From positions 4,092,001 to 4,156,000 of the forward strand of contig NZ_CP080378.1 in the NCBI RefSeq assembly GCF_019443445.1: 64,000 bases of DNA, written 5' to 3'. The notes under the pieces are model-generated. The model worked only from the letters and a program-made list of their open reading frames with translations. It searched no databases and was not told where the DNA came from. Of this stretch, positions 25,794-53,925 are shown piece after piece. Position 1 is the stretch's first letter. Every line of letters starts with the position of its first letter. This DNA is from Massilia sp. PAMC28688 (lineage in GTDB: Bacteria > Pseudomonadota > Gammaproteobacteria > Burkholderiales > Burkholderiaceae_D). The position numbers were made by a program, and so were the translations under genes.

Positions 25794-25875
25794 AAAGGGG
25801 ACGGTGGCGCAAGGCGGCGCGCCCACTGTCGTATGCCGTCCACAAGGGTGGCCGAAAGCCGCGCCCCTTTTTTTC
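25793..25875 (+). terminator. Possible rho-independent terminator after the PAS kinase gene
   Basis: AAAAGGGG at 25793-25800 can pair with CCCCTTTT at 25864-25871, which runs into a tract of seven T. A second internal stem (GACGGTGG with CCACTGTC, one mismatch) would bring the arms together. The loop is long for a standard terminator, so this is a weak call. Confidence 0.35.
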
Positions 25876-25915
25876 TTGCTTGCGTATAGTGGTACTTATA
25901 CACTGGCAACAAAAA

Positions 25916-33811: not shown

Positions 33812-36800
33812 ATGTCGGCAAAGCGGCCCGCTGGACTGAAAAGACACAATCAACTGACGGCCCTGGAGCCGCGCATGCTGTTTGACGGCGCCGCGCTGGT
33901 GGCCTGGGATGCGGCCGACGCACCTGCCATGCCGGATCCGGCCATCGCCGCCGCGCCCGCCGAACTGGTCTTCATTTCACCCGAAGTGCTCGACATCGAT
34001 GCCATTGTCCAGGCCTTCGGTCCTTCGGCCGAGGTCATCACGCTCGATGCCGGCAGCGACGGCCTTGACCAGATCAGCCGGGCGCTGGAAGGGCGCAGCG
34101 GCGTGGGCGCCATTCACCTGGTGGCGCACGGCGCGCCCGGCTTCATTGCGCTGCCCGGCCAGCCGCTCAACGGCGCCACGCTCGACGCGCGCGCCGCGCA
34201 GGTGGCCCTGTGGTCGCAGGCGCTGACGGCCGATGCTGACATCCTGGTCTATGGCTGCGACGTGGCAGCCTCCGAAGGCGGGCTGGCACTGCTGGGACAA
34301 TTGGCGGCGCTGACCGGCGCCGATGTCGCCGCTTCCACCGACGACACCGGTGGCGGCAACTGGACGCTTGAATTTTCCACCGGCGCGATCGACACCCAGG
34401 CCGTCTTTTCGGCCGGCCGCGGCGACCCTGCCACCTATGCCCCGCGCCTGGCAACCATTGACCTGGGCGGCAATACCGGCTGGACCACGATCATGGTCGG
34501 CGCCGGACGCGACCCGTATGGCGACAGCCAGGCCGGCGCCGCCGACACCGACATCATTGGCGACGCCACCCACGGTTCGCTGTACACGGCCTACGACGAC
34601 AAGGGGACGGCCAGTGTGGCCGACGACACGCTGGTATTTCGCATGCGTATCGACAATCCCACCAGCAGCACCAATTTTGGCGGTGTGGCCATTGTCGGCA
34701 TGGATGCCAACCTGGACGGCAGGATCGACCTGTTCTTTTCGGTCGATGGCCGCAACAACGGCCAGGCCGTGCGCCTGCTCGATCCGGGCACCGGCGCCAA
34801 CCTGTCACCAAGCACCACGTCCACCTCGGCGCTGCCAACCGGCTGGCTGCCCAATAACGGGGTGTATGGATTCACACCCGGCACCTATTCAGTGGTGGCG
34901 GTATCGGCTGCCACCGACCCCAACTGGGGCCCATCGACCCTGGGCGGCAGCGCCAGCGATCTGACCGGGCGTGGCGGGACCGATGTCTTTGTCAGCTGGC
35001 GCGTGCCGATTGCCGACATCGCGCTGGTGCTGGCCAAGCCTTCACCGACCGATCGCAGCGGCACCGGTCCGCGCGGCAGTACCGGCATTGCCGGCTATGG
35101 CAAGGACACCGTCGTCCAGTACATCAGCTTTACCCAGACCCAGACCGGCCCAATCAACGGTGACCTGAATGGGGTGGGGCCAAGTTACGACAAGAACGCC
35201 AGTTTCGCCTCGCTCGGCACGTTCACCTCGCCCATGTCGGCCAGTAACCCGGTGCCGGACGGTTTGTCGGTGACGATCCGCGAACCGGTCGGCGATGGGC
35301 TGCTGGCCGGGGCTGGCGCCGGCAGCGAGGCTTCCAGCGTGACGCTGCACGGCACCACCAAGGCCAGCATCGGCTCCACGGTGGCCCTGGCCATCAGCGA
35401 CGGCGCTGGCGGCAGCACGACGGCCAGTGCCACCGTGGTAGCCGGCATCAATGGTCTGAACACATGGAGCGTGGGCGGCGTGGACCTGTCCGGGCTGGCC
35501 GAAGGCACGCTCACCATTACCGCATCCGTGGTCAATAATGGCGTCACTGCCAGTGACAGCGCCAGCGTGATGCTGGACAAAACCGGCCCCCTGGTCGGGA
35601 TCACCCAGCTGGCCGGCACCACCGCCGGCAGGCCGCTACTGAGCGGCACCACGGACTTGCCCGACGGTGCCCAGCTGACCCTGACGCTCGACCCGGACAA
35701 CAATGCCGCCAGCGCCAATCTGGTGTACCAGGTGCTTGTCTCGGGCGGCGCCTGGACCCTCAATACCGCCACCGCCACGCCGCTGTCGGGCAGCATGCCG
35801 GCGGCCGGGCTCACCCCCACCACCAAGATCACGGCCACCGCCGTTGATGCGGCCGGCAACCGCAGCGGCGCAGTGGCGCTGAACGTGCCAACCGTGACCA
35901 GCCAGGTGACCGGTTCCACGCTGCCCGTCATTGGAGGGGCCTGGACCAATATCGCCGGCGATGCGATCAGCGTGCGCCTGTATGCCGATAACGGCGGCAG
36001 CCCCGGCGCACTGCTGGCCGTGTACACACCTTCGCTTGCCGCTGACAGCTGGAGTGTGAACCTGGCCACGGCCAGCATGGAAGGCGGCGGCACGCTGGGC
36101 GCACTGGCGCCGGATGCGCTGTATCACGTGGTGGCGACGGTGGCGCGCGGGGGCAGCAGCGTGAGTGACACCAGCAGCGGCGAGCTGGCCATTGTCGGCG
36201 GCCCAGCCATCGCCATCCATGACCATGACGGTGCCGACGATGGCGCCGCCACGTCGGGCGTCGCGCGGCCGGTCTTTTCCGGCACCTCCACCGTCATCAG
36301 CGGTTTCATCAACCTGCTGATCGACCCTGCCGGCAACGGCACCGGTGACCAGATCCGCTACGCGGTTGCCACCGACGCTGCTGGCAACTGGACGCTCGAC
36401 ACCAGCATTGCCCAGCCGGTGGCGGGCTTCATGCCGGTCGCGGGCCTGTCCGGCGCCGCCCTGGTCACCGTGACCACCCCGCTCGACGCCAGCGGCCAGA
36501 GCGCCACCGACACGCTGGCACTTGACACCGTCATCGCCGGTATCCGCATCGGCACCTCGGCGCTTGACGCCAGCGGCGTGGAGTCGGTCATTGCCAACGG
36601 TGGGGCCGAGTCCATCATCATCGCCGGCGACCGTATCTTCAACAAGGCCGAGGACAATGCCGTGGTGGTCAGCGGCAGTACCACCAACGTCGCCGTCGGC
36701 AGCACGGTGACGATCACCGTCAGCGATGGCATCACCACGTTGAGCAAGGCCGCGACGGTGGCCGCCGATGGCAGCTTCACGCTGGCCGGCGATGCGTTCG

Positions 36801-39800
36801 ATGTGTCGGGCCTGAAGGATACCTCGCTCGTGTTTACTGCCAGCGCAGGCGGCGCCTCGGCGGTCAAGGTGGCCTCGCACGATGCCATCGCCCCGCAGAT
36901 CGTGCTCACCACACCGTCCACGGTCAAGGCCTCGTCGGCCACGGCTTTTGGCAACGTGGCCCTGCCGGCCGGCTCCATCGTGCGCATCTGGACCAGCATC
37001 GACGCCACCGTCCTCAATGCCACGGTGGACGCGAATGGCGATTTTTCCGCCTTGCTGACCCTGCCCAACGGTAATGGCAACGTGACCATCTATGCCGCCT
37101 CCACGGCCACTGACGTCGCTGGCAACAAGGTGATGCAGACTTCCCAGACCGTGGCGTACCAGAATCCCAACCTGTCACCGCCTGCCATCAGCGTGGTGGG
37201 CGTGACCGGCACCGGCGGTGCCGACACCACCATTACTTCGGGCGAGATTGGCGGGGGCATTACCATCAGCGGGACCGTCGCCGGCACCGCCACGTCAGCC
37301 AGCGGCACGATTGTCGTTACCGTCAGCGATGGCAGCATCACCAGGACCAGCGGCGAGGCCGGCATGGCGCTCACGCGCTCGGGCTACAACTGGAGCCTGG
37401 CCATGGCTGCCCACCTGGTCGATGACTTCAACAATGGCACACTGGTCATCACGGCCCAGCTGACCGACCATATCAGCGGCGGTGGTGGCGGTACCACGTT
37501 CATCGTCAAGGACGTGGCGCAGCCTACGCTGCTGCTGGTGACCGGCACCCCCTCGATATCGATCACCACGCCGATCGATGCCAATGGAATCATCAACGCT
37601 GCCGAAGACGACGCCGTGACCATCAGCGGCTACGCAGTCAACGCCACCGGCGGCCTGGTCACCGTGACCGTGTCCGACGGTGACGCGAGCACCATCGATC
37701 CCACCGCTACGGCCAGCGTCGGCACCGACGGCCGGTGGTCGGTGACGGGCATGAACCTGTCGCCGCTCAAGGATGGTTCGCTCACCGTGTCGGCAGTGGT
37801 GGACCCGGATCGCAATGCCGCCACCAGCAACAGCGCCAGCACCAGCGCCACCGTCTGGCACGACAAGACCGCGCCGCTGCTGCACATTACTTCGGCGGCC
37901 ACGGTTGGCAATGCCAATCCCTTCATCAGCGGTACCAGCACCGACCTGGCTGCCGGAACCGAGGTGACGGTCACCATCAACACCGACCGCGCCGGCGCGC
38001 CGGAGGCCACCTATACCACCACCGTGCAGGCCGACGGCAGCTGGCGCGTGGCCTCACAGGTAGCCACCCCGGTCAACAGCCTCATTACCGTCAGCGCCTC
38101 GGACGCAGCCGGCAATGCGGCCCAGGTCAGCGCCACCGCCGTTGCCATGCTCTCGAGCGATACGGGCGGCAGCGCCAGCGATTTCATCACCGCGACCCGT
38201 GCCCTGTCATTTGGCGGCTACGCCGGTGCAGGCCAGACCGTTACCGTCAGCCTCAATGGCGGCCAGATCGGCAGTCCCGTGACGGCCGGCGCTGACGGCG
38301 CGTGGACGCTGAACTACACCGGGGTGCAGCTGGCCAACGGCAGCTATACACTGCAGGCGAGCACCGTTTCGGCAGGTGGCACGGCGCTCGCCACCCAGGT
38401 CGTGGTGATCGATTCCAGGACAGTGGCTATTGGCGCCGTCTCGCTTGACAGCGGCGCCAGCGCGGCCGACTACATCACCGCCGATGCCAGCCTGATCATC
38501 AGCGGCAGCGCCACCAGCGGCGCCGAGGTGACCGTATGGGCCACCGACAGCAGCGGCACTGAAGTATTTCGCCAGCTGGCCGGCGCCACCGGCGGCGTCT
38601 GGAGTATCGACCGCAGCGGCAGCGCGCTGGCCGATGGCGTGTACACGCTGCGCGCCTCGGTCACCGATGCTTCTGGCCTCACCACCACGGTAAGCCAGGC
38701 GCTGGTCATCGACACCCGGGCGCAGATGGGCCTGACCACCAACTACCGCAGCGCCGACAGCACGCCCATACTGTCCGGTACCAGCGATATCGGCAGCGGG
38801 CGCGCCATCAGCGTGACCGTGGCCGTTGCCGGGGGCGGCAGCTACACCTATGCCACCAGCGTGGGCACCGACGGCACCTGGCGCGTGGACACGGGCAGCG
38901 TGGTGCCGGCCGGGCAGGGCGCCATTGTCACCTATGCCGATGGCGCGGCGCTGACCATCAGCGCCAGTGGCAGCGACATTGCCGGCAACGTGGCCTCGGC
39001 CAGCAAGGCGATGATCATCGACCTGGCGGCGCCGGTCATCGGCATTACCACGCACCTGGACTACACCGGTGCCAACACGCCGGACGGCACCCTCAGCGCG
39101 GCCGAGGATACGGCCGTCATCCTGCGGGGTACCACGGTCAATGTCGCCGACGGCAGCGTGATTGCACTGACCATCACCGACGGCACCATCACCTACGCCG
39201 ATACGGCCGTCGTCAGCGGCAACGCCTGGCAGGTACCGGCGCTCAATCTGCGCGCCCTGGCCAACGGGACCATCAGCGTGACGGCCATCTACATCGATGA
39301 CAGCGGCACGCCGTTTTCGGCGCTGGCCACCGTCCTGCACGACAAAACTTTGACCGGCAACAGCGTGAGCATCGACAGCATCAGCACCGACACGGGCGTG
39401 GCCGGCGACTTCGTCACCAGCGACAATACGCTCGTGTTCCGCGGTGGTGCGGCGGCCGGCGCGAACGTCAGCGTGCGCCTGGCCACGGGAAGTGGCAACG
39501 TGTTTTCCACCTCGGTGCAGGCCGATTCTGCGGGCAACTGGAGTGTCGATTACCAGGCCAGTGCCCTGGGCGACGGCAGTTACACCCTGGCCGCCCAGGT
39601 GGGTGCCGGCGCCATTGCGTCGCAAGCCATCGTAATCGACACTGCCGCGCCGCTTGGCGCGGTCACCGTCGACAGCCCGGTGGTCACGTCCGACAGCACG
39701 CCGCGCCTGACGGGCAGCGCGGTACTGGGCGCAGGCCAGGGCCTGACGGTCACGGTCAATGGCAGAACCTACACGGCAGGAGATGGCCAGCTGTCGCTGG

Positions 39801-42800
39801 CCGGTACGGCCTGGACGCTCGACATACCCGCTGCCCATGCGCTGGCAATTGGCGGCCCGAACGCCGGTTTCGACGGCGTCTACCAGGTTGTGGCGAGGAT
39901 CACCGACCTGGCGGGCAATGCCGTCACTGACGCCAGCAGCAATGAACTGACGGTGGCAGATGCCTCGGCCCCGGTGGTCGACCTGGATCCGTCCGATGGC
40001 GCGACCATCAATCACAGCGTCACCAGCACCATGGGCGCAGCCGTGAGCCTGGACGACAATGCGGACCCACTGACCGTGGTCGAAGCAGGCAACCGCCTGC
40101 CGCGCCTGACGCTGACAGCTGGCGGCATCCTGGACGGTGCCAGCGAAAAGCTCATTTTCGGCAGCACCGTGGCCGCGGCCGATGGCAGCGATGCCACGGC
40201 TGCGCTGGGCGATATCGTGGTCGGCGGCGTGCGGGTTGCCATTTCCTTCGCCGCCGGCAGCTTCACCATCGAGCGCCATACGTTCACTCCCTTGACCGCC
40301 GCCGAAGCGCAGGCGGTCCTGCGCGATATTCAGTACAGGAACGACCTGGCAGGGGCGGCGACGGCCGGCGTGCGCACCTTTGGACTGGGAGCTGTCGATG
40401 ACCTGTCCAACAGCGCCGTGCTGGCCAGTGTCGCAGTGAGCGTCACTGCGGCCGTGGCCGCACCGGCGCATACTGTCGTCATCGCCACGCTTGCCGATGA
40501 TGTGGCCCCGCTGACGGGCAGCGTCAGCAATGGCGGCGTCACCAACGATACCGCGCCTGTACTCGCCGGCAGCGTGTCGGCGCCGCTCGGCGTGCACGAG
40601 GTGGTGGCGCTTTACCGCGACGGTGTGCGCATCGGCACTGCCGCCGTCACGGGCACCAGCTGGTCCTACGCCGACAGCGCCCTGGCCGACGGCGCTTCCT
40701 ACAGCTACAGCGCGCGGGTGGAAAACACGGCAACGACAGCCAGCGGCGCCGCATCGGCAGCCTATGTCATCACCATCGATACCAGCGCGCCCGCACAGAC
40801 GCTGGACGTGGTGTCCATGTCGCGTGACACCGGGACTGCACACGACTTCATCACCGCAGATGGCGCCGCCGGCCGCACCGTCAGCGGTACCCTCTCGGCG
40901 CCGCTTGGCAGCGGCGAGGTACTCGAAATGAGCGCGGACGGTGGCGCGACCTGGCAGGCGGCCAGCGTGACCGGGACCGCATGGACAGTGCTCGACAGTG
41001 CAACCCACACCGGCAACTGGACCATCATCGGCCGCGTCACCGACGCTGCCGGCAATGCCTCCGTGGCCGGCACGCGATCCGTGGTCTTGCAGGTGGCTCC
41101 GGCGCAGGGTGTGAGCATCATCAGTGTTACCGATGACGTGGCGCCGCTGGCCGGAATCGTCGCCGACGGCGGCGTGACGAACGACCAGGCGCCGCTGCTG
41201 GCAGGCAGCCTGTCGGCCCCGCTCGCGGCCAATGAAGTACTGGCGGTGTATCGCAATGGTGTGCGCGTGGGCAGCGCTGCAGTCACTGGCCTGTCGTGGG
41301 AATATGCCGATGCCATGCTGGCCGATGGCGCAAGCTATCGCTACAGCGCGGTGGTGGAAAATACCGTGACGGCCGCCAGCGGCACGGCGTCCGCGACGTA
41401 CCTCATTACCGTGGACGCGAGCGCGCCGCTGCACGTAGTGAGCATCGGCGCCATGACGCGCGATACCGGGCAGGCAGGCGACTTTGTCACCAGCGACGGC
41501 AATGCCGGCCGCGTCGTGACGGGCAGCCTGTCGGCGCCGCTCGCAGCCGGCGAGATGCTGGAAGTGAGCATGGATGGCGGTGCCAGCTGGGCTGCGGCCA
41601 GCGTGACGGGCAGCAGCTGGCAGGCGACCGATGCCATGGCACATGGCGCCAACTGGATGATCCAGGCGCGTGTCGTGGATGCGGCCGGAAATCCCGGGCC
41701 GCTCGCTGTCCGGCAAGTCACGCTGGCGCCGCCGGAGGTGACGCCACCAGAACCGCCGCCAGCGGTGACGCCACCGGTGGAGCCACCGGTCGTTGCGCCG
41801 CCTGTGGCGCCTCCGGTGGTGGAGCCGCCGGTCGTGGAACCGCCCGCTGTCACGCCACCGGTGGTCACGCCTCCGGTAGTGGAGCCGCCCGCAGTCACGC
41901 CGCCGGTCGTTACGCCTCCGGTCACGCCGCCGGTCGTTACGCCTCCGGTCACGCCACCGGTCGTTACGCCGCCGGTGACACCGCCAGTGGTCAGGGTCCC
42001 GATCGTCGTCACCACCCCGGAGCCGGTGAGCCAGGTGCCTGTCGCCCCGGCTGCCCCTGTGCCGCCGGTCGCCGGCGTGACACAGGCGGCGCCCGTTCCC
42101 GCGTTTGCATCGCCTGCAGCGGCACTTTCGGATGCCGCCCCGGCTGCGCTGGACACCAGTGCGCTGGCGCCGGGAGCGGCGCTGGTTGCGAACGGCATCC
42201 CCGCGCCAGGGGTGCAGGCAGTGGCCCTGTTCGCGCAGGCGGCCGCGCCGGCAATGGTGTTCGATATCGACACCGGCAATGCCGCATTCGGCAGCAGCGG
42301 CGCCTTGTCGACCTTGCGCGGCACCGACATTGGCGCCGGCTTCGCGATCAGCGTGCGCCAGTCCGAGGGAGCGGCGCTTGGCAAGGATGCGCTCAAGCTG
42401 GTCTCTGCGGTGGTCAAGATTGAAGCGGGCCTGGTACCCGACAGCGACTTGCTGGAGCTGTCCATCGCTTCGCCCAACATCACCGCCACCTACGACCCGT
42501 CTACCGGCACGCTGACGCTGGCCGGCGCTGCCAGCGCGGCTGAATACGAACAGGTGATCCAGGGCGTGAAGCTGCGCGAAGCCGATGGCGGCGACGTCAA
42601 GGACAAACGCACGATCCGCTTTACGATCAAGGCAGAAGGCGGCCAGACCCAGAGCGGAACCAAGGAATACCGCGGCCCGGGCAGTGCGCCTTCGGCCGCC
42701 GTCGATGCCGTCAAGCCGGGCAAACCGGGCTTCATGGCGCAGATTGCAAAGGCCGCCGCCAGGCAGACCGAGGGCCGCGACAAGCTGGTGGCCCTCGCCA

Positions 42801-42814
42801 ATCGCCCATCATGA
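33812..42814 (+). CDS. Giant LEPR-motif / DUF4347 surface adhesin with Ig-like repeats
   Basis: This 3000-residue protein begins MSAKRPAGLKRHNQLTALEP, with the motif LEPRMLFDGAA at residues 18-28, the N-terminal 'LEPR-XLL' type tag seen on many very large exported proteins. There is no hydrophobic Sec signal peptide. Residues about 46-205 form a DUF4347 domain ('IHLVAHGAPGFIALPG', 'ILVYGCDVAASEGG'). A beta-rich domain with 'GMDANLDGRIDLFFSVDG' follows, then more than a dozen Ig-like repeats marked by 'VMLDKTGPLVGI' and 'DVAGNKV'-type ends. After these come a proline-rich spacer (about 2643-2730) and a C-terminal globular domain. No RTX nonapeptides were seen. The start at 33812 is the first that keeps the tag near the N-terminus. 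It heads a five-gene export operon. Confidence 0.9.
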   Translation: MSAKRPAGLKRHNQLTALEPRMLFDGAALVAWDAADAPAMPDPAIAAAPAELVFISPEVLDIDAIVQAFGPSAEVITLDAGSDGLDQISRALEGRSGVGAIHLVAHGAPGFIALPGQPLNGATLDARAAQVALWSQALTADADILVYGCDVAASEGGLALLGQLAALTGADVAASTDDTGGGNWTLEFSTGAIDTQAVFSAGRGDPATYAPRLATIDLGGNTGWTTIMVGAGRDPYGDSQAGAADTDIIGDATHGSLYTAYDDKGTASVADDTLVFRMRIDNPTSSTNFGGVAIVGMDANLDGRIDLFFSVDGRNNGQAVRLLDPGTGANLSPSTTSTSALPTGWLPNNGVYGFTPGTYSVVAVSAATDPNWGPSTLGGSASDLTGRGGTDVFVSWRVPIADIALVLAKPSPTDRSGTGPRGSTGIAGYGKDTVVQYISFTQTQTGPINGDLNGVGPSYDKNASFASLGTFTSPMSASNPVPDGLSVTIREPVGDGLLAGAGAGSEASSVTLHGTTKASIGSTVALAISDGAGGSTTASATVVAGINGLNTWSVGGVDLSGLAEGTLTITASVVNNGVTASDSASVMLDKTGPLVGITQLAGTTAGRPLLSGTTDLPDGAQLTLTLDPDNNAASANLVYQVLVSGGAWTLNTATATPLSGSMPAAGLTPTTKITATAVDAAGNRSGAVALNVPTVTSQVTGSTLPVIGGAWTNIAGDAISVRLYADNGGSPGALLAVYTPSLAADSWSVNLATASMEGGGTLGALAPDALYHVVATVARGGSSVSDTSSGELAIVGGPAIAIHDHDGADDGAATSGVARPVFSGTSTVISGFINLLIDPAGNGTGDQIRYAVATDAAGNWTLDTSIAQPVAGFMPVAGLSGAALVTVTTPLDASGQSATDTLALDTVIAGIRIGTSALDASGVESVIANGGAESIIIAGDRIFNKAEDNAVVVSGSTTNVAVGSTVTITVSDGITTLSKAATVAADGSFTLAGDAFDVSGLKDTSLVFTASAGGASAVKVASHDAIAPQIVLTTPSTVKASSATAFGNVALPAGSIVRIWTSIDATVLNATVDANGDFSALLTLPNGNGNVTIYAASTATDVAGNKVMQTSQTVAYQNPNLSPPAISVVGVTGTGGADTTITSGEIGGGITISGTVAGTATSASGTIVVTVSDGSITRTSGEAGMALTRSGYNWSLAMAAHLVDDFNNGTLVITAQLTDHISGGGGGTTFIVKDVAQPTLLLVTGTPSISITTPIDANGIINAAEDDAVTISGYAVNATGGLVTVTVSDGDASTIDPTATASVGTDGRWSVTGMNLSPLKDGSLTVSAVVDPDRNAATSNSASTSATVWHDKTAPLLHITSAATVGNANPFISGTSTDLAAGTEVTVTINTDRAGAPEATYTTTVQADGSWRVASQVATPVNSLITVSASDAAGNAAQVSATAVAMLSSDTGGSASDFITATRALSFGGYAGAGQTVTVSLNGGQIGSPVTAGADGAWTLNYTGVQLANGSYTLQASTVSAGGTALATQVVVIDSRTVAIGAVSLDSGASAADYITADASLIISGSATSGAEVTVWATDSSGTEVFRQLAGATGGVWSIDRSGSALADGVYTLRASVTDASGLTTTVSQALVIDTRAQMGLTTNYRSADSTPILSGTSDIGSGRAISVTVAVAGGGSYTYATSVGTDGTWRVDTGSVVPAGQGAIVTYADGAALTISASGSDIAGNVASASKAMIIDLAAPVIGITTHLDYTGANTPDGTLSAAEDTAVILRGTTVNVADGSVIALTITDGTITYADTAVVSGNAWQVPALNLRALANGTISVTAIYIDDSGTPFSALATVLHDKTLTGNSVSIDSISTDTGVAGDFVTSDNTLVFRGGAAAGANVSVRLATGSGNVFSTSVQADSAGNWSVDYQASALGDGSYTLAAQVGAGAIASQAIVIDTAAPLGAVTVDSPVVTSDSTPRLTGSAVLGAGQGLTVTVNGRTYTAGDGQLSLAGTAWTLDIPAAHALAIGGPNAGFDGVYQVVARITDLAGNAVTDASSNELTVADASAPVVDLDPSDGATINHSVTSTMGAAVSLDDNADPLTVVEAGNRLPRLTLTAGGILDGASEKLIFGSTVAAADGSDATAALGDIVVGGVRVAISFAAGSFTIERHTFTPLTAAEAQAVLRDIQYRNDLAGAATAGVRTFGLGAVDDLSNSAVLASVAVSVTAAVAAPAHTVVIATLADDVAPLTGSVSNGGVTNDTAPVLAGSVSAPLGVHEVVALYRDGVRIGTAAVTGTSWSYADSALADGASYSYSARVENTATTASGAASAAYVITIDTSAPAQTLDVVSMSRDTGTAHDFITADGAAGRTVSGTLSAPLGSGEVLEMSADGGATWQAASVTGTAWTVLDSATHTGNWTIIGRVTDAAGNASVAGTRSVVLQVAPAQGVSIISVTDDVAPLAGIVADGGVTNDQAPLLAGSLSAPLAANEVLAVYRNGVRVGSAAVTGLSWEYADAMLADGASYRYSAVVENTVTAASGTASATYLITVDASAPLHVVSIGAMTRDTGQAGDFVTSDGNAGRVVTGSLSAPLAAGEMLEVSMDGGASWAAASVTGSSWQATDAMAHGANWMIQARVVDAAGNPGPLAVRQVTLAPPEVTPPEPPPAVTPPVEPPVVAPPVAPPVVEPPVVEPPAVTPPVVTPPVVEPPAVTPPVVTPPVTPPVVTPPVTPPVVTPPVTPPVVRVPIVVTTPEPVSQVPVAPAAPVPPVAGVTQAAPVPAFASPAAALSDAAPAALDTSALAPGAALVANGIPAPGVQAVALFAQAAAPAMVFDIDTGNAAFGSSGALSTLRGTDIGAGFAISVRQSEGAALGKDALKLVSAVVKIEAGLVPDSDLLELSIASPNITATYDPSTGTLTLAGAASAAEYEQVIQGVKLREADGGDVKDKRTIRFTIKAEGGQTQSGTKEYRGPGSAPSAAVDAVKPGKPGFMAQIAKAAARQTEGRDKLVALANRPS
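40466..41720 (+). repeat. Two tandem ~210-residue units within the adhesin
   Basis: Units starting near 40466 and 41107 encode about 210 residues each with the same order of motifs. These include 'DDVAPLTGSVSNGGVTND' / 'DDVAPLAGIVADGGVTND', 'VRIGTAAVTGTSW' / 'VRVGSAAVTGLSW', 'LADGASYSYSARVENT' / 'LADGASYRYSAVVENT' and a closing sub-domain with 'DTGTAHDFIT' / 'DTGQAGDFVT'. This is a duplicated pair of Ig-like domains, more similar to each other than to the earlier repeats. Confidence 0.8.
41740..42000 (+). repeat. Proline-valine-threonine repeat spacer of the adhesin
   Basis: Codons encode repeated PPVV(T/E)PP and VTPP units over roughly 85 residues. At the DNA level the later part consists of near-identical repeats built on cgccggtcgttacgcctccg. 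Such a spacer is likely extended and stiff and may cross the peptidoglycan or outer surface layer. Its length could vary by slippage. Confidence 0.85.
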
Positions 42815-42840
42815 CCAATACACGCTACAGGAACCATTGC

Positions 42841-44343
42841 ATGTTCAAGAAAATTTTGCCGCTTGCCGTTGCCGCCGCCCTGACCAGTGGCTGCACGGTG
42901 GTCCCGCTGGCCAGTACTTCCGGCGAGCGCCAGGCGCGGGTGACGCAGGACCAGGCGGCCATGTTCCGCGACCAGGAACCGGTGAGCGGTGAGCTCAGTT
43001 TTGCCGATGTGCTGGCACGCGCCTACAAGTACAACCTGGAGACGCGCGTCAAGCTGATGGAAAACGCGCTCGCGCGCAGCCAGCTCGATCTCGGTTTTTA
43101 CGACATGCTGCCGCGCCTGACCGCAGCGGCGGGCTACACCACCCGCAGCAATGACCCCGGCGGCACGGCCATGAACCTGCGCACCGGCCAGGTGCAGACC
43201 GATGTCTCGGTGGCGCAGGAACGCACGCGCCACACCGAGCAGCTGACGCTGTCGTGGAATGCCCTTGACTTCGGCCTGTCGTACGTGCGCGCGCAGCAAA
43301 GCGCCAACCAGGTGCTCATTGCCGAGGAGCGCCGCCGCAAGACCATGCAGAACATCACCCAGGAAGTGTATACCGCCTACTGGCGTGCGCTGGCCGCGCA
43401 GCGCTTCTCGGCCGACATCGACCGCCTGCATGGCGTGGCCGAAGCGGCGCTCGCGGACTCGCAGCGCATCGAGGAAAAGCGCCTGATGCCGCCGATGCAG
43501 GCGCTGGTCTACCAGCGCGGCCTGCTGGAGATCGTGCAGCAGCTGCGCCTGCGCCGCAACGAGCTTGAGGGGGCGCGCATGGAGCTCGCCGCGCTCATGA
43601 ACCTGCGTCCCGGCGCCGCCTTTCGCCTGAAGGACGATGGCGCCGAGCCGGCGCTGCCGCCTGCCATGGACGCCGCAGCCATCACACGCATGGAAGACCA
43701 TGCGCTCATGCACCGCGCCGAACTGCGCGAGGAAGACTACCGCAAGCGCAACAGCGCCCTGGAAATGCGCAAGGCGGTGCTGTCGGTGCTGCCGGGCCTG
43801 TCGTTTGACACCGGTCTGCAGCATGATTCGAACAAGTACCTGTACAACAATAGCTGGTATGAATCGGGCCTGCGTGTGTCGTTCAACCTGTTCAAGGCCT
43901 TTTCGCTGCCGGCGGCCAGGCGCCAGCACGAGGCGCAGATGAAGGTGGACGACATGCGCCGCGCCGCGCTGGGCATGGCGGTGATGACGCAGGTGCGCAT
44001 CTCGGCCGAGCGCTACCGGCAAACGGTGGAGGAGTACACGCTGGCGCAGCGCCTGGATGGCATCGACCAGCGCATCAACGCCCAGATGGCCAATGCGGTC
44101 AAGAGTTCGTCCGAGAGCGAGCTCGAAGCAATCCGCGCCCAGGTGCGCTCTGTGCTTTCGAGCCTGCAGCGCGCTTATTCGCAGGCATCGATGCAGGCGG
44201 CGCATGCACGCATGCTCAATTCCATCGGCGTGGATCTGGCCGTGCCGCAGCAGGCCGGGAGCCTGGCCGAATTTTCCACCAGCCTTGACCAGGGTCTGAA
44301 GAACTGGACGGTTGACGGCATCGTGGGCGGAGGCGCCAAATGA
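42841..44343 (+). CDS. TolC-family outer-membrane lipoprotein
   Basis: This 500-residue protein has a lipoprotein signal: MFKKILPLAVAAALTSGC with the lipobox LTSGC. The long body is helical with TolC-like features ('FADVLARAYKYNLETRVKLM', 'AAGYTTRSND', 'TLSWNALDFGLSYVRAQQSANQ', 'VYTAYWRALAAQR', 'VSFNLFKAFSLPAARRQHEA'), so it should form an outer-membrane/periplasm channel. The start at 42841 is chosen for the signal peptide and the agga upstream; an ATG at 42811 overlaps the adhesin stop. It lies directly after the adhesin gene and is coupled to the next gene (ATG overlapping its stop). Confidence 0.88.
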   Translation: MFKKILPLAVAAALTSGCTVVPLASTSGERQARVTQDQAAMFRDQEPVSGELSFADVLARAYKYNLETRVKLMENALARSQLDLGFYDMLPRLTAAAGYTTRSNDPGGTAMNLRTGQVQTDVSVAQERTRHTEQLTLSWNALDFGLSYVRAQQSANQVLIAEERRRKTMQNITQEVYTAYWRALAAQRFSADIDRLHGVAEAALADSQRIEEKRLMPPMQALVYQRGLLEIVQQLRLRRNELEGARMELAALMNLRPGAAFRLKDDGAEPALPPAMDAAAITRMEDHALMHRAELREEDYRKRNSALEMRKAVLSVLPGLSFDTGLQHDSNKYLYNNSWYESGLRVSFNLFKAFSLPAARRQHEAQMKVDDMRRAALGMAVMTQVRISAERYRQTVEEYTLAQRLDGIDQRINAQMANAVKSSSESELEAIRAQVRSVLSSLQRAYSQASMQAAHARMLNSIGVDLAVPQQAGSLAEFSTSLDQGLKNWTVDGIVGGGAK

Positions 44344-45083
44344 TGCGTTCGCTGCAGGTGGGCGCGTGCGTGATGGCGCTGGCACTGCCGGCGGCGGCCC
44401 AGGTGCGCCAGGCCGCACCGCCGGCCGATGCCATCCGCGTGCTGCTGGTGGCGGAAAACGAAGCCGTCATCTCCAGCCAGGTGGCCGCGCGCGTGGTATC
44501 GCTGCCCGCTGCCCTGGGCAGCCGTGTCAGGAAGGGCGATATCCTGGTGCGGTTCGATTGCGCAGAGCAGGCCGCGCGCCTGAACATGTCGGAAGCGGAG
44601 CTGCTGTCGGCCAGGGAAACGAACGCCAGCAAGCAGGAGCTCAAGGCGTATCGCTCGGCCAGTGAGCTGGACGTGCGGCTGGCGCAGGCCGCCGTGACCA
44701 AGGCGCAGGCCCAGGTCAATGTGGTCAAGGCGCAGATGGGCTACTGCAGTATCAGCGCACCGTTCAGCGCACGGCTGGTCAAGCTGCGGGTGCGCGCCCA
44801 CGAAACGGTGGCGGCAGGCCAGCCCCTGCTGGACCTGGTGGACAACAGCAGCTTCCGCTTCCAGCTGCATGTGCCGTCGCGCTGGCTCAGCTGGCTGGGG
44901 GAGGGCACCGCTTTCAATATCACGGTCGATGAAACCGGCAAGACTTACCCGGCCAAGGTCAAGGTAATCAATGGCCGCGTGGACCCGGCCAGCCGTACGG
45001 TCGAACTGACCGGTGTCATCGCGGGCAAGCATCCCGAACTGATTGCCGGCATGAGCGGGAGCGCCAGGTTCAATGAGCGCTGA
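44340..45083 (+). CDS. Short periplasmic adaptor (membrane-fusion) protein
   Basis: This 247-residue protein has a signal peptide (about 21 residues, ending LPAAAQ) and a compact adaptor fold. It has a lipoyl-like half ('SSQVAARVVSLPAALGSRV', 'KGDILVRFDCAEQAARL'), a short coiled hairpin, the second lipoyl half ('GYCSISAPFSARLVKLRVR', 'VAAGQPLLDLVD') and a beta-barrel ('TVELTGVI', 'LIAGMSGSARF'). It resembles the adaptors of RND or type I systems, but no pump gene is adjacent. The start overlaps the TolC-like gene stop; the end overlaps the next gene by 11 bases. ggagg lies upstream. Confidence 0.85.
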   Translation: MMRSLQVGACVMALALPAAAQVRQAAPPADAIRVLLVAENEAVISSQVAARVVSLPAALGSRVRKGDILVRFDCAEQAARLNMSEAELLSARETNASKQELKAYRSASELDVRLAQAAVTKAQAQVNVVKAQMGYCSISAPFSARLVKLRVRAHETVAAGQPLLDLVDNSSFRFQLHVPSRWLSWLGEGTAFNITVDETGKTYPAKVKVINGRVDPASRTVELTGVIAGKHPELIAGMSGSARFNER

Positions 45084-46428
45084 CGGCCAGCCTGGCGAGA
45101 GCGTGCTGGCCCATCTGCTGGCGCTGGCGCGCGATGTGACCCAGGCCAAAAGCGAAGACCTGGCGTCGTACGCCATCGTCAACCAGACCTTCCAGCTGCT
45201 GCCGTATCACATGGCTGCCTTGTGGCGGCCGGGCGACGACGGTGGCGGACGCATCACGCATGCCAGCGGACTGGCGAAAATTGAGGCGGACAGTCCCTTT
45301 GTGATGTGGCTCAATGCGCTGGCGCTCGCACACCTGGCGGGCGGCGCCGGGAGCGCTTCGGCACCCGCGCAGCTGAGCGCTGCGAGCGTTCCTGAAAAGC
45401 TGGGCAGCCAGTGGGCCGAGTGGCTGCCCGCGCACCTGCTGTGGATGCCGCTGCCGTCGCCTGCCGAACCGTGGCCGGGCGTGCTGCTGTTGGCGCGCGA
45501 GACGGCGTTTGACGCGTCCGAAGTGGCGCTGCTGGGCGAGGCTGCGGGGTTGTATGGCCACGCCCTGTGGGGCTGGCAGCGCCGGCACCGCAACTGGCGG
45601 GCGCGCCTGCGGCAGCTGGCCGCAAGGCGCCGCGTGCGGGTGGGTGCCCTGCTGGCCGCATCGGTGCTGCTGCTGCCATTACGCCTGTCGGTGGTGGTCG
45701 ACGGTGAAGTCATTGCCCAGGCGCCGATCGTGCTGGCGGCGCCTGCCGATGCGCCGATCCGCGAGGTGATGGTGCGTCCCAACCAGGCCGTCAAGGCAGG
45801 CGACGTGCTCTATGTGCTCGACGACGCCGGGGTGCGCAACCGCCTGGCGGTGGCGGCCAAGACGCTGGAAATCGCGCGCGCCGACTGGCTGCGATCGAGC
45901 CAGAAGGGCTTCGCCGACGAAGCGTCACGCTCCGACGTGGCGGCGCTGTCGGCGCGCATCGAGGAAAAGCAGGCGGAACTGGGCTACCTCAAGGAGCTGT
46001 CGCAGCGCCTGACGGTGAGGGCGCCGGCGGCCGGGGTGGTGGTGTTTTCCGATCCGCTCGACCTGGTAGGCAAGCCGGTGGTGACGGGCGAGCATGTGAT
46101 GACGCTGTCCGACCCGGCCCGGGTGGCGCTCCAGGCCTGGCTGCCGCCGGCCGACGCGATCGCGCTGGCGCCGGGCGCGCAGATGAGCCTATCCCTGTTT
46201 ACCGCGCCCCTCGGGTCGGTCCAGGCCACGCTGGAAGACAGCAGCTACGAGACTGAGATTGCACCCCAGGGCCACAGTGCCTTTCGCCTGCGCGGGCGCT
46301 TCGCGCCGGGCGAGGCGCCCCAGCTTGGGCTGAAGGGCACGGTGCGCCTGTATGGCGAGCGCGCACCGCTGATCTATCACATGCTGCGCCGGCCGCTGGC
46401 GGGCATGCGCCGCCTGCTGGGAGTCTAG
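45073..46428 (+). CDS. GAF-like domain fused to a HlyD-type adaptor
   Basis: This 451-residue protein has an unusual order. An N-terminal soluble region of about 170 residues looks like a GAF-type sensor domain ('FQLLPYHMAALWRPGD', 'HLLWMPLPSPAEPWPGVLLL', 'EVALLGEAAGLYGHAL'). A basic stretch and a single membrane helix ('VRVGALLAASVLLLPLRLSV', about 193-212) follow. The C-terminal HlyD-like part contains 'VVVDGEVIAQAPIVLAAPAD', 'VMVRPNQAVKAGDVLYVLDD', a coiled hairpin and 'LTVRAPAAGVVVFSDPLD'. The GAF part would be cytoplasmic and the adaptor periplasmic. It is coupled to both neighbours. Confidence 0.82.
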   Translation: MSADGQPGESVLAHLLALARDVTQAKSEDLASYAIVNQTFQLLPYHMAALWRPGDDGGGRITHASGLAKIEADSPFVMWLNALALAHLAGGAGSASAPAQLSAASVPEKLGSQWAEWLPAHLLWMPLPSPAEPWPGVLLLARETAFDASEVALLGEAAGLYGHALWGWQRRHRNWRARLRQLAARRRVRVGALLAASVLLLPLRLSVVVDGEVIAQAPIVLAAPADAPIREVMVRPNQAVKAGDVLYVLDDAGVRNRLAVAAKTLEIARADWLRSSQKGFADEASRSDVAALSARIEEKQAELGYLKELSQRLTVRAPAAGVVVFSDPLDLVGKPVVTGEHVMTLSDPARVALQAWLPPADAIALAPGAQMSLSLFTAPLGSVQATLEDSSYETEIAPQGHSAFRLRGRFAPGEAPQLGLKGTVRLYGERAPLIYHMLRRPLAGMRRLLGV

Positions 46429-46429
46429 C

Positions 46430-48520
46430 GTGCCACTGCCACCGCACTTGCCGCCGCTGCGCGACGACATCGAGATCTTCGCGTCCGGCGCCTCGTCCTC
46501 CGGCGCGCCCGCGTGGCGCCTGTACGATCCGGTGCGCAATCGCTTCTTTCAGATTGGCGAGGCCGAATTCCAGATGCTGGCGCACTGGCAGCTGGCCACA
46601 CCGGCGGCGCTGCTGGACGCCGTGGCCCGGGCCATGCCGCTGGCGCCCGACGAGAGCAACCTGGAAGCACTGCTGCTGTTCCTGCACGGGCACCAGCTGC
46701 TGGCACGGCGCGACCGCAGCGCCACCGCCGCCCTGGGCGCACTGGCGCCGAAGCCGCAGCGCTGGTATGCCTGGCTGCTGCATAACTACCTGTTCGTGCG
46801 TATCCCGCTGGCCAATCCGGATCGCCTGTATGCCTGGCTTGCGCCGCGCCTGACATGGCTGTTCCGGCCCGGCTTCTGGCTGCTGGTGGCGCTGCTCGGG
46901 GTGACTGGCGCGGCCCAGGTGATGGCGCAATCGGCCCGCTTTGGCGCCACCTTCAGCTACGCATTCAGCCTGGAAGGGGCGCTCTGGATTGCGCTGTCGC
47001 TTGCCCTGCTCAAGTCATGCCATGAGATCGGACACGGGGTGGCGGCCAAGCGCCACGGTCTGCGCGTCACGCGCACCGGGGTCGCGCTGCTGGTCCTGTG
47101 GCCGGTGTTGTATACGGATGTGAACGATATCTGGAAGCTGTCCGACTGGCGCGCGCGGTTCCAGGTCAGCGTGGCCGGCATTGCCACCGAATTGGTGTTT
47201 GCCGTGGCGGCGACCTGGGGCTGGCTGCTGCTGCCCGAGGGGCCGCTGCAAAGCGCCATGTTCATCATTGCCGGCACGGCCTGGGTACTGTCCCTGGCGA
47301 TCAATCTCAATCCCTTCATGCGTTTTGACGGCTACTACCTGCTGTCGGACCTGCTGGATTATCCCAATCTGCAGGAAGCCTCGTTTGCAGCGGCGCGCTC
47401 GCTGGTGCGGCGCTGCCTGGGCCTGCGCGAACCTGCCCCGGGCAGGGCGCTGGCTGCCTATGGCCTGGCAACCTGGGTGTACCGGGTGGTGCTGTTCCTG
47501 GGCATTGCCTACTTTGTGCTGCTGAGTTTCCCACCCCTGCTCGGGGTACCGCTGGCAGTAATTGAAATCGGCTGGTTCATCGCGCGCCCGGTGCTCGCCG
47601 AGCTGGCGCTGCTGTGGCCGCGCCGCGGGGAGGTCACGCGCGCGCGCCGTGGCGCCATTGGCGCCGCCGCGGCCCTGGTGGCCCTGCTGGCGGTGCTTCC
47701 CTGGTCGTCGCGGGTCAGCGCGCCGGCCTACCTTGCCTGGGCCGCGCGCGAGTCGGTGTTTGTGGCGGCCAGCGCGCGTGTGAAAGCGGTCCACGCGCGC
47801 AATGGCGATGTGCTCAAGGCGGGCCAGGTCGTGCTGGAGCTTGAGTCGCCGGAACTGGACTCGCGCCTGGCCCTGGCGCAGGCCCGCGTGCGCGAGGCGC
47901 AGGCGCGCCTGGACAAGGCGGCCAGCGGCGCTGCCTCGTTTGACCAGTCCGATGTGCTGCAGCAGACCCTGGCCGAACGCATGGTCGAACGCGACAGCGT
48001 GCTGGCCGATATGGAGCGGCTGACGGTGCGTGCCTCGCGCAGCTGTGTGGTGCGCGATCTGGCCTCGCACGTGGTGGCGGGGCGCCGGATCAGGGCCGGT
48101 GGCAAGGTCGCCACGCTGCTGCCGGCCGGCGCGGCGGCACCTCAGCAGATTACCGCCTATGTGCGGGAAGACGATGTACAGCGCCTGGCGCCCGGCGCGG
48201 CGGTGCGCTTTTATCCCGATGGCGATCCGCTGACGGTGGTGCGGGGCCGGGTGCGCACGGTGGGCGTGGGGGCCAGCGCCGGCGTGGGGGAGCGGGCACT
48301 GACATCGCTGTCGGGCGGGCCGCTGCCGGCGCTGCAGACGGCCCATGGTGAACGCCTGCACGGCGCCTTTTACGCGGTCGACGTGGACGTCGAGACTCCC
48401 ATGACCACCATGCGCAGCACCGTGACCGGCACCATCCAGATCACGTCCTCGTCGCATAATCCGGTCATGGACCGCATGCGTGCCGCCATGGCGGCGCTGA
48501 ACCGCTACCTCGCATTCTGA
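46430..48520 (+). CDS. M50 (site-2-type) zinc protease fused to a HlyD-type adaptor
   Basis: This 696-residue membrane protein starts at a GTG one base after the previous stop. The N-terminus (about 1-90) looks like a PqqD-like winged helix ('WRLYDPVRNRFFQIGEAEFQ'). The membrane core has the zinc motif 'KSCHEIGHGVAAK' (HExxH at about 198-202) and the second metal site 'NLNPFMRFDGYYLLSDLLDY' (Asp near 300), both intact, within about eight helices. From about 430 a HlyD-like adaptor follows ('VHARNGDVLKAGQVVLELES', hairpin, 'LTVRASRSCVVRDLASHVVA', 'ITAYVREDDVQRLAPGA'). It should cut substrates in or near the inner membrane while contacting the TolC-like channel side. Confidence 0.88.
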   Translation: MPLPPHLPPLRDDIEIFASGASSSGAPAWRLYDPVRNRFFQIGEAEFQMLAHWQLATPAALLDAVARAMPLAPDESNLEALLLFLHGHQLLARRDRSATAALGALAPKPQRWYAWLLHNYLFVRIPLANPDRLYAWLAPRLTWLFRPGFWLLVALLGVTGAAQVMAQSARFGATFSYAFSLEGALWIALSLALLKSCHEIGHGVAAKRHGLRVTRTGVALLVLWPVLYTDVNDIWKLSDWRARFQVSVAGIATELVFAVAATWGWLLLPEGPLQSAMFIIAGTAWVLSLAINLNPFMRFDGYYLLSDLLDYPNLQEASFAAARSLVRRCLGLREPAPGRALAAYGLATWVYRVVLFLGIAYFVLLSFPPLLGVPLAVIEIGWFIARPVLAELALLWPRRGEVTRARRGAIGAAAALVALLAVLPWSSRVSAPAYLAWAARESVFVAASARVKAVHARNGDVLKAGQVVLELESPELDSRLALAQARVREAQARLDKAASGAASFDQSDVLQQTLAERMVERDSVLADMERLTVRASRSCVVRDLASHVVAGRRIRAGGKVATLLPAGAAAPQQITAYVREDDVQRLAPGAAVRFYPDGDPLTVVRGRVRTVGVGASAGVGERALTSLSGGPLPALQTAHGERLHGAFYAVDVDVETPMTTMRSTVTGTIQITSSSHNPVMDRMRAAMAALNRYLAF

Positions 48521-52206: not shown

Positions 52207-53796
52207 CTATTTGTTGATGACGAGTGACAGGCGCTTGACACCGGAAGGCGGCATGCTGCCTTCCGCGCGCACCCGGTTGCGCCCACTTGCCTTGGCCAGA
52301 TAGAGGGCGCGGTCGGCCGCGTCAATCAGTTCGGACGGCACCATGCCCTCGATCGGCACCAGGGCGTGGACGCCGCAGCTGACGGTCACGCTATGGGCCC
52401 GGCCCGGCACGTGGGTGAGCTTGTGGGCCGCCACCGACTTACGGATGGCTTCGGCCACGGCAATGGCGCCCCGCAGTCCGGTACCGGGCAGCAGAATGGC
52501 AAATTCTTCGCCGCCCAGGCGCGCCGCCAGATCGTGACTGCGACGGCGCCCGCCGTGGATGCGGGCTGCGACAAATTTCAGGCATTCATCCCCGGCGGGG
52601 TGACCGTACAGATCGTTATATTTCTTGAAGTAATCGACATCCAGAATAATCAGGGCCAGCGAGCGACCCTCGGCCATGGCGCGGTCGAATTCCCGCACAA
52701 GGCGGGTGTCAAACTGGCGCCGGTTGGCAATGCCGGTCAGGGCGTCGCGCAAGGCCTGCTGCCGCAGGGAGCGGCTCTTCTTGACCAGCAGCTTTTGCAG
52801 ATTGCGCCGTTCCTTCTCGAGCTGGTCACGCAGCGAGATCTGGCTGTACAGGCGTACGCCCAGCCACAGCTGGATCAGCATCAGCAGCGACACCCCGGCG
52901 GTGGACAGATAGGCGCTGTCCCACCAGCGCGCCAGGATCTCATCGGTGGAGCGGGACACCGCGATCAGCAGCGGGTAGCCGGGCACGTTCTGGTAGCTGT
53001 ACAGGGTAGGCGCTTCGCTACTGCCGGCCGGCGGTCCGACTATCCTCGATCCGGCCGGGCCGGCACCGCGGCGCACGGCGAACAGCGTGCTGTTGCGTAT
53101 GTCGCGTCCCACATCATGGTTGCGCGGCAGGGTATGAAGCAGCTGCCCCGATTCCAGGGCCAGCACCACATTGCCGCGGGTGCCCGGCTGCATGCCTTGC
53201 AGGCCGCGCAAGTGTCCGATCCGGATCAATGCCATGGCCACGCCCCTGAAGCTGCCATCGTCGGCAGTGAGCGGACGCGACACCGGCAGCAGCCATTGCG
53301 ACGACGCGGCGTCCCGCAGCGGGCTGCCGACGAATAACTGGGCTGCCGGCAGATAGCGGTGCTGCACGAGATGGCTGTTGATGGTGGCGGCAGGCACAGC
53401 CGCCCCTTCGCTCGCCAGCAAGGCCGCGCCATCGTCATCGTATCCGGCCAGAGCGTGCAGCAGGGGAAGGCGGCGCAGGCGCGCGGCCAGGTAGTCATCG
53501 AGCGGCGCCGGTTCGCCCAGCATGCTCTCGCGCTCGAGCCGTTCGCCCAGGTCGAGCAGGGTCAGGTCAACCTTGTCCAGATCCTGGCTCACCTGCTCGG
53601 CCAGCGCGCTGGCCAGGTTCGACGCGGCCGTGGCCGCCTCGTCCAGTTGCATGGCGCGGGCCGTGTAGACGCTCCAGCCCTGCATGCCCCCGAGCGACAG
53701 GCACACCAGGGACAAGAAGACGATGGCCCACAAGGTCACCGGGCGCTTCTGGTGATCGAGCTGGGACAGGGAGGCGAGGATTTGTTCCGGCTTCAT
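52207..53796 (-). CDS. Membrane-bound diguanylate cyclase with periplasmic Cache-like sensor
   Basis: This 529-residue protein has two membrane helices ('LWAIVFLSLVCLSLGGMQGW' near 25-45 and 'VSLLMLIQLWLGVRLYS' near 305-322) enclosing a periplasmic sensor of about 250 residues with a dCache-like pattern ('LLPVSRPLTADDGSFRGVAM', 'YSYQNVPGYPLLIAVSRS'). The cytoplasmic GGDEF domain has 'DLAARLGGEEFAILLPG' (near 427) and 'DYFKKYNDLYGHPAGDECL'. It should make cyclic-di-GMP in response to an external signal. The start at 53796 is preferred; 53817 is possible. Confidence 0.9.
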   Translation of the reverse strand: MKPEQILASLSQLDHQKRPVTLWAIVFLSLVCLSLGGMQGWSVYTARAMQLDEAATAASNLASALAEQVSQDLDKVDLTLLDLGERLERESMLGEPAPLDDYLAARLRRLPLLHALAGYDDDGAALLASEGAAVPAATINSHLVQHRYLPAAQLFVGSPLRDAASSQWLLPVSRPLTADDGSFRGVAMALIRIGHLRGLQGMQPGTRGNVVLALESGQLLHTLPRNHDVGRDIRNSTLFAVRRGAGPAGSRIVGPPAGSSEAPTLYSYQNVPGYPLLIAVSRSTDEILARWWDSAYLSTAGVSLLMLIQLWLGVRLYSQISLRDQLEKERRNLQKLLVKKSRSLRQQALRDALTGIANRRQFDTRLVREFDRAMAEGRSLALIILDVDYFKKYNDLYGHPAGDECLKFVAARIHGGRRRSHDLAARLGGEEFAILLPGTGLRGAIAVAEAIRKSVAAHKLTHVPGRAHSVTVSCGVHALVPIEGMVPSELIDAADRALYLAKASGRNRVRAEGSMPPSGVKRLSLVINK

Positions 53797-53925
53797 GTGC
53801 CTGCAAGGGGCGGGCATGGGTGCAGCCGGCGCGGAAATGGGGTTAGGGGCACGTGCACATTGATTGGATAGAAACCACCCATCTTAGCCGAAACATTCCT
53901 GCGGGCGGTGGTTTTGCAATGTTTT

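Follow-up and report, generated by a model that had tools for sequence, protein, structure and literature searches.

Giant adhesins decide whether bacteria adhere and form biofilms, and the familiar export routes for them use ATP-binding cassette (ABC) transporters or depend on Sec. How, then, could a protein of 3000 residues reach the cell surface from an operon that encodes a channel and adaptors and no ABC exporter? This question is raised by the window analysed here, a stretch of 64,000 nucleotides from Massilia sp. PAMC28688, whose genome is a single contig of 5.46 Mb. At 33812-48520 on the plus strand lie five genes, a giant adhesin followed by four envelope genes: a TolC-like outer-membrane channel (OEP), a short periplasmic adaptor, a HlyD adaptor with a GAF-like extension (HlyDg) and an M50 metalloprotease fused to a HlyD domain (M50-HlyD). 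The coordinates and the start and stop codons of this tight operon were checked and are as an earlier note on this DNA had placed them. Neighbouring genes share 4, 4 and 11 bases, and a single base separates the last pair, HlyDg and M50-HlyD, so the five genes should be co-produced. No ABC, resistance-nodulation-division (RND) or major facilitator superfamily (MFS) pump is matched in the operon by Pfam or NCBIfam.

We suggest, with moderate confidence, that the operon encodes an ABC-free route, powered by a SecA-type ATPase, for the secretion and processing of giant surface proteins with the N-terminal tag LExRxxFD[GA]. The anatomy, the linkage, the matching of classes and the SecA linkage of a sister class come from comparison of sequences; we infer the recognition, cleavage and export of the tagged protein and the motor of the window's class.

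Linkage of the tag to the M50-HlyD gene set

The tag residues L18, E19, R21, F24 and D25 are invariant in 24 aligned sequences, the window's included. The strict pattern LEPR.[LM][LFMY] gives 20 hits in 1.23 million residues of open reading frames (ORFs) from 110 loci, all within 83 residues of the ORF start. A relaxed pattern was applied to the 80 loci that hold the most similar relatives of M50-HlyD, which are a sample. It gives 30 hits in 30 of them, all in the first 150 residues, compared with 0-2 in each of 20 shuffles. The tag resembles the LEPR-XLL motif: the NF012209 model matches residues 1-100 of the window's adhesin with 15.2 bits (E 0.012), below its cut-off of 17 bits, and a relative at locus L077 exceeds this cut-off with 17.9 bits (L and G numbers are our handles for loci and genomes).

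The control was the DUF4347 family, which occurs with and without the tag, and for which the N-termini of 130 ORFs from 82 genomes of the same bacterial family were compared. The tag is found in 23/23 DUF4347 ORFs within 20 kb of M50-HlyD, in 17/36 elsewhere in M50-positive genomes, and in 1/71 in M50-negative genomes. One of those counted as tagged, L141, has its locus clipped at a contig end. Ten of about 140 rows were omitted, namely the window's own, eight that were short, fragmentary or weak, and one full match (G018:C1:520874). In the 294 genomes of this family, M50-HlyD is present in 53, DUF4347 in 85 and both in 44 (Fisher P 5.5e-20). In 299 genomes of the phylum, M50-HlyD of either class is found in at least 86, DUF4347 in at least 83 and both in at least 70 (P 8e-39). 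Both P values are overstated, because related genomes are not independent, and the M50 counts per genome are lower bounds since three candidates in each were scored. Among 50 phylum rows, the tag occurs in 35/38 DUF4347 ORFs of M50-positive genomes and in 1/12 of M50-negative ones. These rows comprise the 30 best-scoring loci and 20 chosen by us (10 M50-negative; 10 M50-positive, several for their nearness to M50), and among the 12 M50-negative rows the available DNA of L341 does not include the N-terminus, while L338 and L342 start inside the domain. By these comparisons the tag hardly occurs outside genomes with M50-HlyD, and the linkage of LEPR tag and gene set that the earlier note had proposed is found far above chance.

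The tag rather than DUF4347 seems to track the machine, because one tagged giant (L091:3-8660, with its 5' end cut by the locus) has no DUF4347 match and carries Calx-beta and cadherin-like repeats instead. In two genomes a pair of tagged adhesins lies off the M50 contig, L140 and L179 (G171:C16 and C17) and L221 and L245 (G037:C19 and C45). Such pairs point to a single machine with more than one substrate; as these assemblies are fragmented, the distance is not proven.

The gene order is also kept. HlyDg is directly upstream of M50-HlyD in 74/80 loci. The complete set of four envelope genes is found in 46/80, or in 41/61 of those with at least 6 kb upstream. The organisms include Pseudomonas, Variovorax, Azospirillum, Rhizobium, Chromobacterium and Nitrospira, and the closest named relatives of M50-HlyD are from Massilia, at about 71% identity. 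On this comparative evidence, the tag, M50-HlyD, HlyDg, the short adaptor and the TolC-like channel are one unit. We rejected the reading of the locus as an artefact, since the operon, the tag and a C-terminal motif of the adhesin are kept in many genomes, and that of an efflux pump only, since the tag ties a substrate gene to the set.

Two classes of M50-HlyD and a SecA paralogue

M50-HlyD splits into a class like the window's (class I) and a second class that is 25-32% identical to the window protein. The tags split with it, ending in FD[GA] in the window's class and in YSA or LSA types in the sister class. The residue after the aromatic position of the tag is D in 35/35 cases near a first-class M50 and S in 6/6 near a second-class one (P 2e-7); these 41 pairs are tagged DUF4347 ORFs within 20 kb of an M50 gene, and 18 of them come from the partly author-chosen phylum rows. 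Thus, tag and M50 class change together. This would be expected if the locus recognises the tag, although a different gene there could encode the reader.

For the suggestion in the earlier note that the M50 protein recognises the tag, the support is therefore indirect: the tag subtype tracks the M50 class, and the N-terminal domain of M50-HlyD is possibly PqqD-like. The order of strands and helices in the predicted model of this domain is compatible with the PqqD fold. An hhalign alignment to PqqD scores 21.4, against 15.8 for the best of 200 column shuffles. The protease itself is matched by Peptidase_M50 with 34.7 bits (cut-off 27.2). Of its metal site, E199, H202 and D300 are invariant in the best 80 sequences and H198 is kept in at least 90%. 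The M50 region also matches NF041824, the daptide HExxH protease, with 159.5 bits (E 1.3e-46), below the cut-off of 300 bits. When the whole model was compared with the PDB, adaptor matches alone were returned.

In the second class, M50-HlyD is followed by a gene for a SecA paralogue of roughly 660-720 residues (SecA_DEAD at 6.7e-82, SecA_PP_bind, P-loop_SecA). This protein stops just past the second nucleotide-binding domain and lacks the wing and most of the scaffold. Its ATPase motifs are intact, and those kept we take to be the Walker, DEAD and arginine motifs. The paralogue stands beside M50 in 7/8 second-class loci examined. Among the matches listed in the 299 phylum genomes there are 41 truncated paralogues, and 41/41 adjoin M50-HlyD, as established by flanking DNA for 20, by position for 11 and from additional flanks for 10; in one of these ten, L409, the M50 gene is present as a fragment at the contig edge. 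Paralogue and housekeeping SecA were told apart by the end point of the match and also, save for the partial copy in G583, by score. Second-class M50 genes without the paralogue are found in G478 (L361) and G125, each with a single SecA. No SecA paralogue is present in the window or in the class-I flanks among the best 80 loci. Judged by this linkage, the paralogue is apparently the dedicated motor of the sister class.

Beside one second-class M50-HlyD and SecA pair, at L362:12886-15814, Pfam finds an O-methyltransferase and a radical SAM enzyme, as in peptide-modification clusters, and L363:1823-4662 resembles this stretch by translation.

Operon parts, adhesin ends and ABC exporters

The features of the operon are collected in the table, together with two examples of the SecA paralogue. 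Two names given in the earlier note needed qualification. Of the GAF-HlyD fusion, the HlyD part is matched by Pfam and the GAF part is not matched in the window's own protein. Pfam finds GAF in 5/17 sequences aligned with it and in two second-class relatives, so the name stands by homology. Of the TolC-like lipoprotein, the OEP match holds. The window's lipobox is non-canonical, with T at -3, and a loose pattern finds a lipobox-like stretch in 41/43 OEP relatives.

Features of the operon and of related loci (window coordinates unless a locus is given)
Feature	Position	Strand	Evidence
Giant adhesin, 3000 aa; DUF4347 and Big_13/Ca_tandemer repeats	33812..42814	+	Pfam/NCBIfam
N-terminal tag LEPRMLFDGA, residues 18-27	33863..33892	+	
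DUF4347 (PF14252) domain	33965..34414	+	Pfam, 157.8 bits (cut-off 24.6)
Proline-rich linker with TPPV/EPPV repeats, near adhesin C-terminus	41729..41986	+	
C-terminal motif FMAQI, residues 2974-2978, type [FL]xxQ[LVIF], starting 27 residues before the end	42731..42745	+	
TolC-like outer-membrane channel (OEP), probable lipoprotein	42811..44343	+	Pfam OEP; relatives
Short periplasmic adaptor, RND_mfp/HlyD type, with N-terminal hydrophobic segment	44340..45083	+	Pfam/NCBIfam
HlyD adaptor (HlyDg) with N-terminal GAF-like extension (GAF by homology only)	45073..46428	+	Pfam HlyD
Predicted single membrane segment of HlyDg	~45643-45699	+	
M50 metalloprotease-HlyD fusion, 696 aa, GTG start	46430..48520	+	Peptidase_M50 and HlyD_3
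N-terminal domain of M50-HlyD, three strands and three helices, possibly PqqD/RRE-like (weak)	46442..46729	+	Predicted model
HEIGH zinc motif (HExxH) of M50	47021..47035	+	
NPFMRFDG, second metal-site motif of M50, with invariant D300	47309..47332	+	
C-terminal HlyD adaptor domain, MacA/MexA-like fold	47702..48457	+	Predicted model, PDB fold search
SecA paralogues beside second-class M50-HlyD	L356:4402-6384; L362:9150-11276		

RTX (repeats-in-toxin) repeats and DUF4214 ends are hallmarks of type I substrates. An RTX-like pattern is absent from the window's adhesin and occurs in 1/12 tagged and 9/17 untagged ORFs. DUF4214 was found neither in the window's adhesin nor in three tagged relatives scanned, and is present in 3/4 untagged DUF4347 ORFs scanned. 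Tagged adhesins thus appear to be without the type I-like ends seen in untagged ones, and a cryptic C-terminal secretion signal is possible. They tend to end differently: [FL]xxQ[LVIF] occurs in the last 70 residues of 33/38 adhesin-like ORFs just upstream of the core genes and is absent from the other 5/38, compared with a mean of 3.5 and a maximum of 10 in 500 shuffles. Length, composition and position, rather than annotation, were the criteria for choosing these 38 ORFs. In untagged DUF4347 ORFs the motif is found in 2/17, with a shuffled mean of 2.4. The DUF4347 domain itself is predicted to have a caspase/CHAT-like (clan CD) fold; of its candidate His-Cys pair, Cys149 is kept in 24/24 aligned sequences and the histidine of an HG motif in 20/24.

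Around untagged DUF4347 genes, no OEP, HlyD or M50 genes are found in 20 regions, of which two stop at a contig end and one inside an ORF. The expectation that untagged genes adjoin type I ABC genes was rejected, as there were none in these regions; the sole ABC-like ORF (L253) is an ABC-F ATPase.

That an ABC transporter is absent, as the earlier note had read the locus, holds for the locus by Pfam and NCBIfam and does not hold for the genome. Nine ABC_membrane genes lie elsewhere in it, one of which is a type I exporter of LssB type (975.9 bits), about 4 Mb from the operon in record coordinates. We looked for an ABC exporter that is either nearby or universal in relatives, and found neither. 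In the flanks of the best 80 relatives no type I ABC exporter was recognised among 18 ABC-like ORFs. Eight of these, the longest included, are named by NCBIfam as importer ATPases (XylG-, UrtD-, Opp/Dpp-, UgpC- and taurine-type), and the ten without a name, at 195-321 residues, are too short for an exporter. Across 41 class-I genomes, the TIGR03375 model is matched at E<=1e-150 in 24 and over its cut-off in 8. The 17 that lack a match at this level were tested together with the window genome, and a HlyB-type exporter is over cut-off in 0/18 and a PrtD-type in 10/18. In 7 of the 17 genomes (G072, G081, G125, G150, G225, G239 and G291) no type I ABC passes any of the three cut-offs. All seven are listed as 100% complete, and HlyB matches of about 600 bits in G081 and G291 fall below the cut-off. 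All but G081 carry a tagged adhesin within 20 kb of M50. Thus, a type I exporter is common in these genomes but not universal.

Genes around the operon resemble, by inspection, GGDEF/EAL- and PAS-sensor genes, at 25742-28408 (+), 28425-29756 (-), 30776-33451 (-) and 52207-53817 (-). Control by cyclic di-GMP is hinted at, because one gene of this type is divergent from the adhesin, about 360 bases away.

A possible export mechanism and its alternatives

In the mechanism that we propose, the polytopic M50-HlyD would receive the tag from the cytoplasm, perhaps by way of a PqqD-like domain at its N-terminus, and the intramembrane zinc site would then clip the tag. The HlyD domain of M50-HlyD, the two other adaptors and the TolC-like lipoprotein could then form a conduit for the unfolded adhesin. 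The push would come from a SecA-type ATPase: the sister class would use its dedicated truncated paralogue, and the window's class the housekeeping SecA. Retention of the adhesin or the end of its transport may be signalled by the C-terminal FxxQ[LV] motif, and outside the cell the protein might be processed by its caspase-like DUF4347 domain. Compared with the earlier model, the putative energy source from the sister class, the C-terminal motif and the caspase-like domain are additions. Since the window genome has no SecA paralogue, the motor of its class is carried over from the sister class; both classes would use a SecA-type motor, a dedicated one in the sister class and a shared one in the window's, and for the window this is the weakest step.

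Several observations weigh against this proposal. A single SecA match is present in the window genome, and no second SecA was found there. The tag region is poorly modelled, with a predicted local distance difference test score (pLDDT) of about 50-60. The tag was not seen in the available DNA of the other 50/80 loci, of which many flanks stop inside the adhesin. In M50-positive genomes 19/59 DUF4347 ORFs are untagged, as are 3/38 in the phylum rows, and M50 genomes without DUF4347 amount to 9/53 in the family and 16/86 in the phylum. Two tagged proteins come from genomes without detected M50, G086 (1080 contigs, with an LLSA-type tag) and G481 (57% complete). The PqqD-like reading rests on an hhalign probability of only 19%, and searches of Pfam, NCBIfam and PDB sequences gave no PqqD or RRE match to the M50 N-terminus or full M50 proteins. 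Many class-I genomes have a type I exporter, as counted above. In addition, deletion of the M50 protease gene epeP did not fully abolish EpeX, according to excerpts of PMC10885120.

In its complete form, the proposal describes a new Gram-negative machine in which M50-HlyD reads and cuts the tag and threads giant proteins into a HlyD-TolC conduit with a SecA-type motor, without SecY and without an ABC, RND or MFS pump; we put this version forward tentatively, as possible but doubtful in its entirety. Alternatively, SecYEG and the housekeeping SecA could carry the adhesin across the inner membrane, with M50 trimming or freeing it and HlyD and TolC leading it across the outer membrane. The single SecA of the window genome and the tie of the paralogue to the sister class would suit such a two-step export, as would a basic and then mildly hydrophobic stretch seen by inspection before many tags. 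However, the best 11-residue mean hydrophobicity of the tag region is 0.6-1.8 in 30 relatives, compared with about 2.2 for the N-termini of OEP and the short adaptor, and the region carries E, R and D. TolC and HlyD systems also normally receive their substrate from an inner-membrane partner. We regard two-step export as rather unlikely.

The distant ABC exporters invite another explanation, in which one of them drives the adhesin through the HlyD-TolC set in trans and M50 is a processing protease only. The window genome has its own LssB-type exporter, and the TIGR03375 and PrtD-type matches are frequent in class-I genomes. Against this stand the seven complete genomes of 17 without a type I ABC over cut-off, six of which have a tagged adhesin near M50, the lack of a type I-form ABC in the best 80 loci, and tagged adhesins without RTX or DUF4214 ends; this makes export in trans improbable. 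Least probable is a device for retention or shedding, where the adhesin is exported by some other route and M50-HlyD with the adaptors merely anchors or releases it, in the way that LapD and LapG anchor and release LapA. The GGDEF/EAL-like flanking genes would fit such a device, and the C-terminal motif could be its retention signal, but a full TolC-HlyD conduit and a conserved intramembrane zinc site are not needed for mere retention.

The proposed ABC-free route shares parts with several known systems. With type I secretion of the LapBCE type it has in common a HlyD-family adaptor, a TolC-like channel and a giant repeat adhesin as substrate; it differs in a locus without an ABC transporter, in an N-terminal tag instead of RTX or DUF4214 ends, and in a protease fused to the adaptor. 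LEPR-XLL is likewise an N-terminal LEPR-like motif on giant proteins, whereas the window's tag is below the cut-off of NF012209 and ends in FD[GA], and no mechanism is attached to NF012209 in the material examined. Gram-positive accessory SecA2 and the sister class both have a dedicated second SecA by an export locus for surface proteins. In contrast to SecA2, the paralogue here belongs to a Gram-negative HlyD-TolC setting, ends after the second nucleotide-binding domain, adjoins M50-HlyD and is missing from the window's class. MacAB-TolC and MexAB-OprM share the MacA/MexA-like adaptor folds and the OEP channel. Such tripartite pumps are defined by energised ABC, RND or MFS transporters, as excerpts of PMC8277102 put it, and the operon has none of these. 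EpeP, an M50 protease, is thought to both cleave and export in the excerpted parts of PMC10885120. EpeP and the daptide HExxH protease share the M50 region; here it is fused to HlyD, with a 3000-residue adhesin as substrate and a TolC partner. Thus, type I secretion, LEPR-XLL, the peptide-processing M50 proteases and SecA2 each have one part and fail a defining feature. We found no description of an M50-HlyD and tag system among the papers listed in the open-access literature searched, which leaves preprints and most subscription papers outside, and one may exist elsewhere; in the accessible parts of open-access papers on LEPR-XLL and DUF4347, the machinery is not discussed. The operon may represent a secretion route not yet described.

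If this is true, the known secretion systems would gain one built on a tag, an intramembrane protease and a SecA-type motor, and it would be widespread, given M50-HlyD in at least 86/299 phylum genomes. The question also becomes testable within one protein family, whose members are either tagged and found with M50 or untagged with type I-like ends. The route would also explain the LEPR-type motif and provide a rule for predicting which giant proteins reach the surface in this way.

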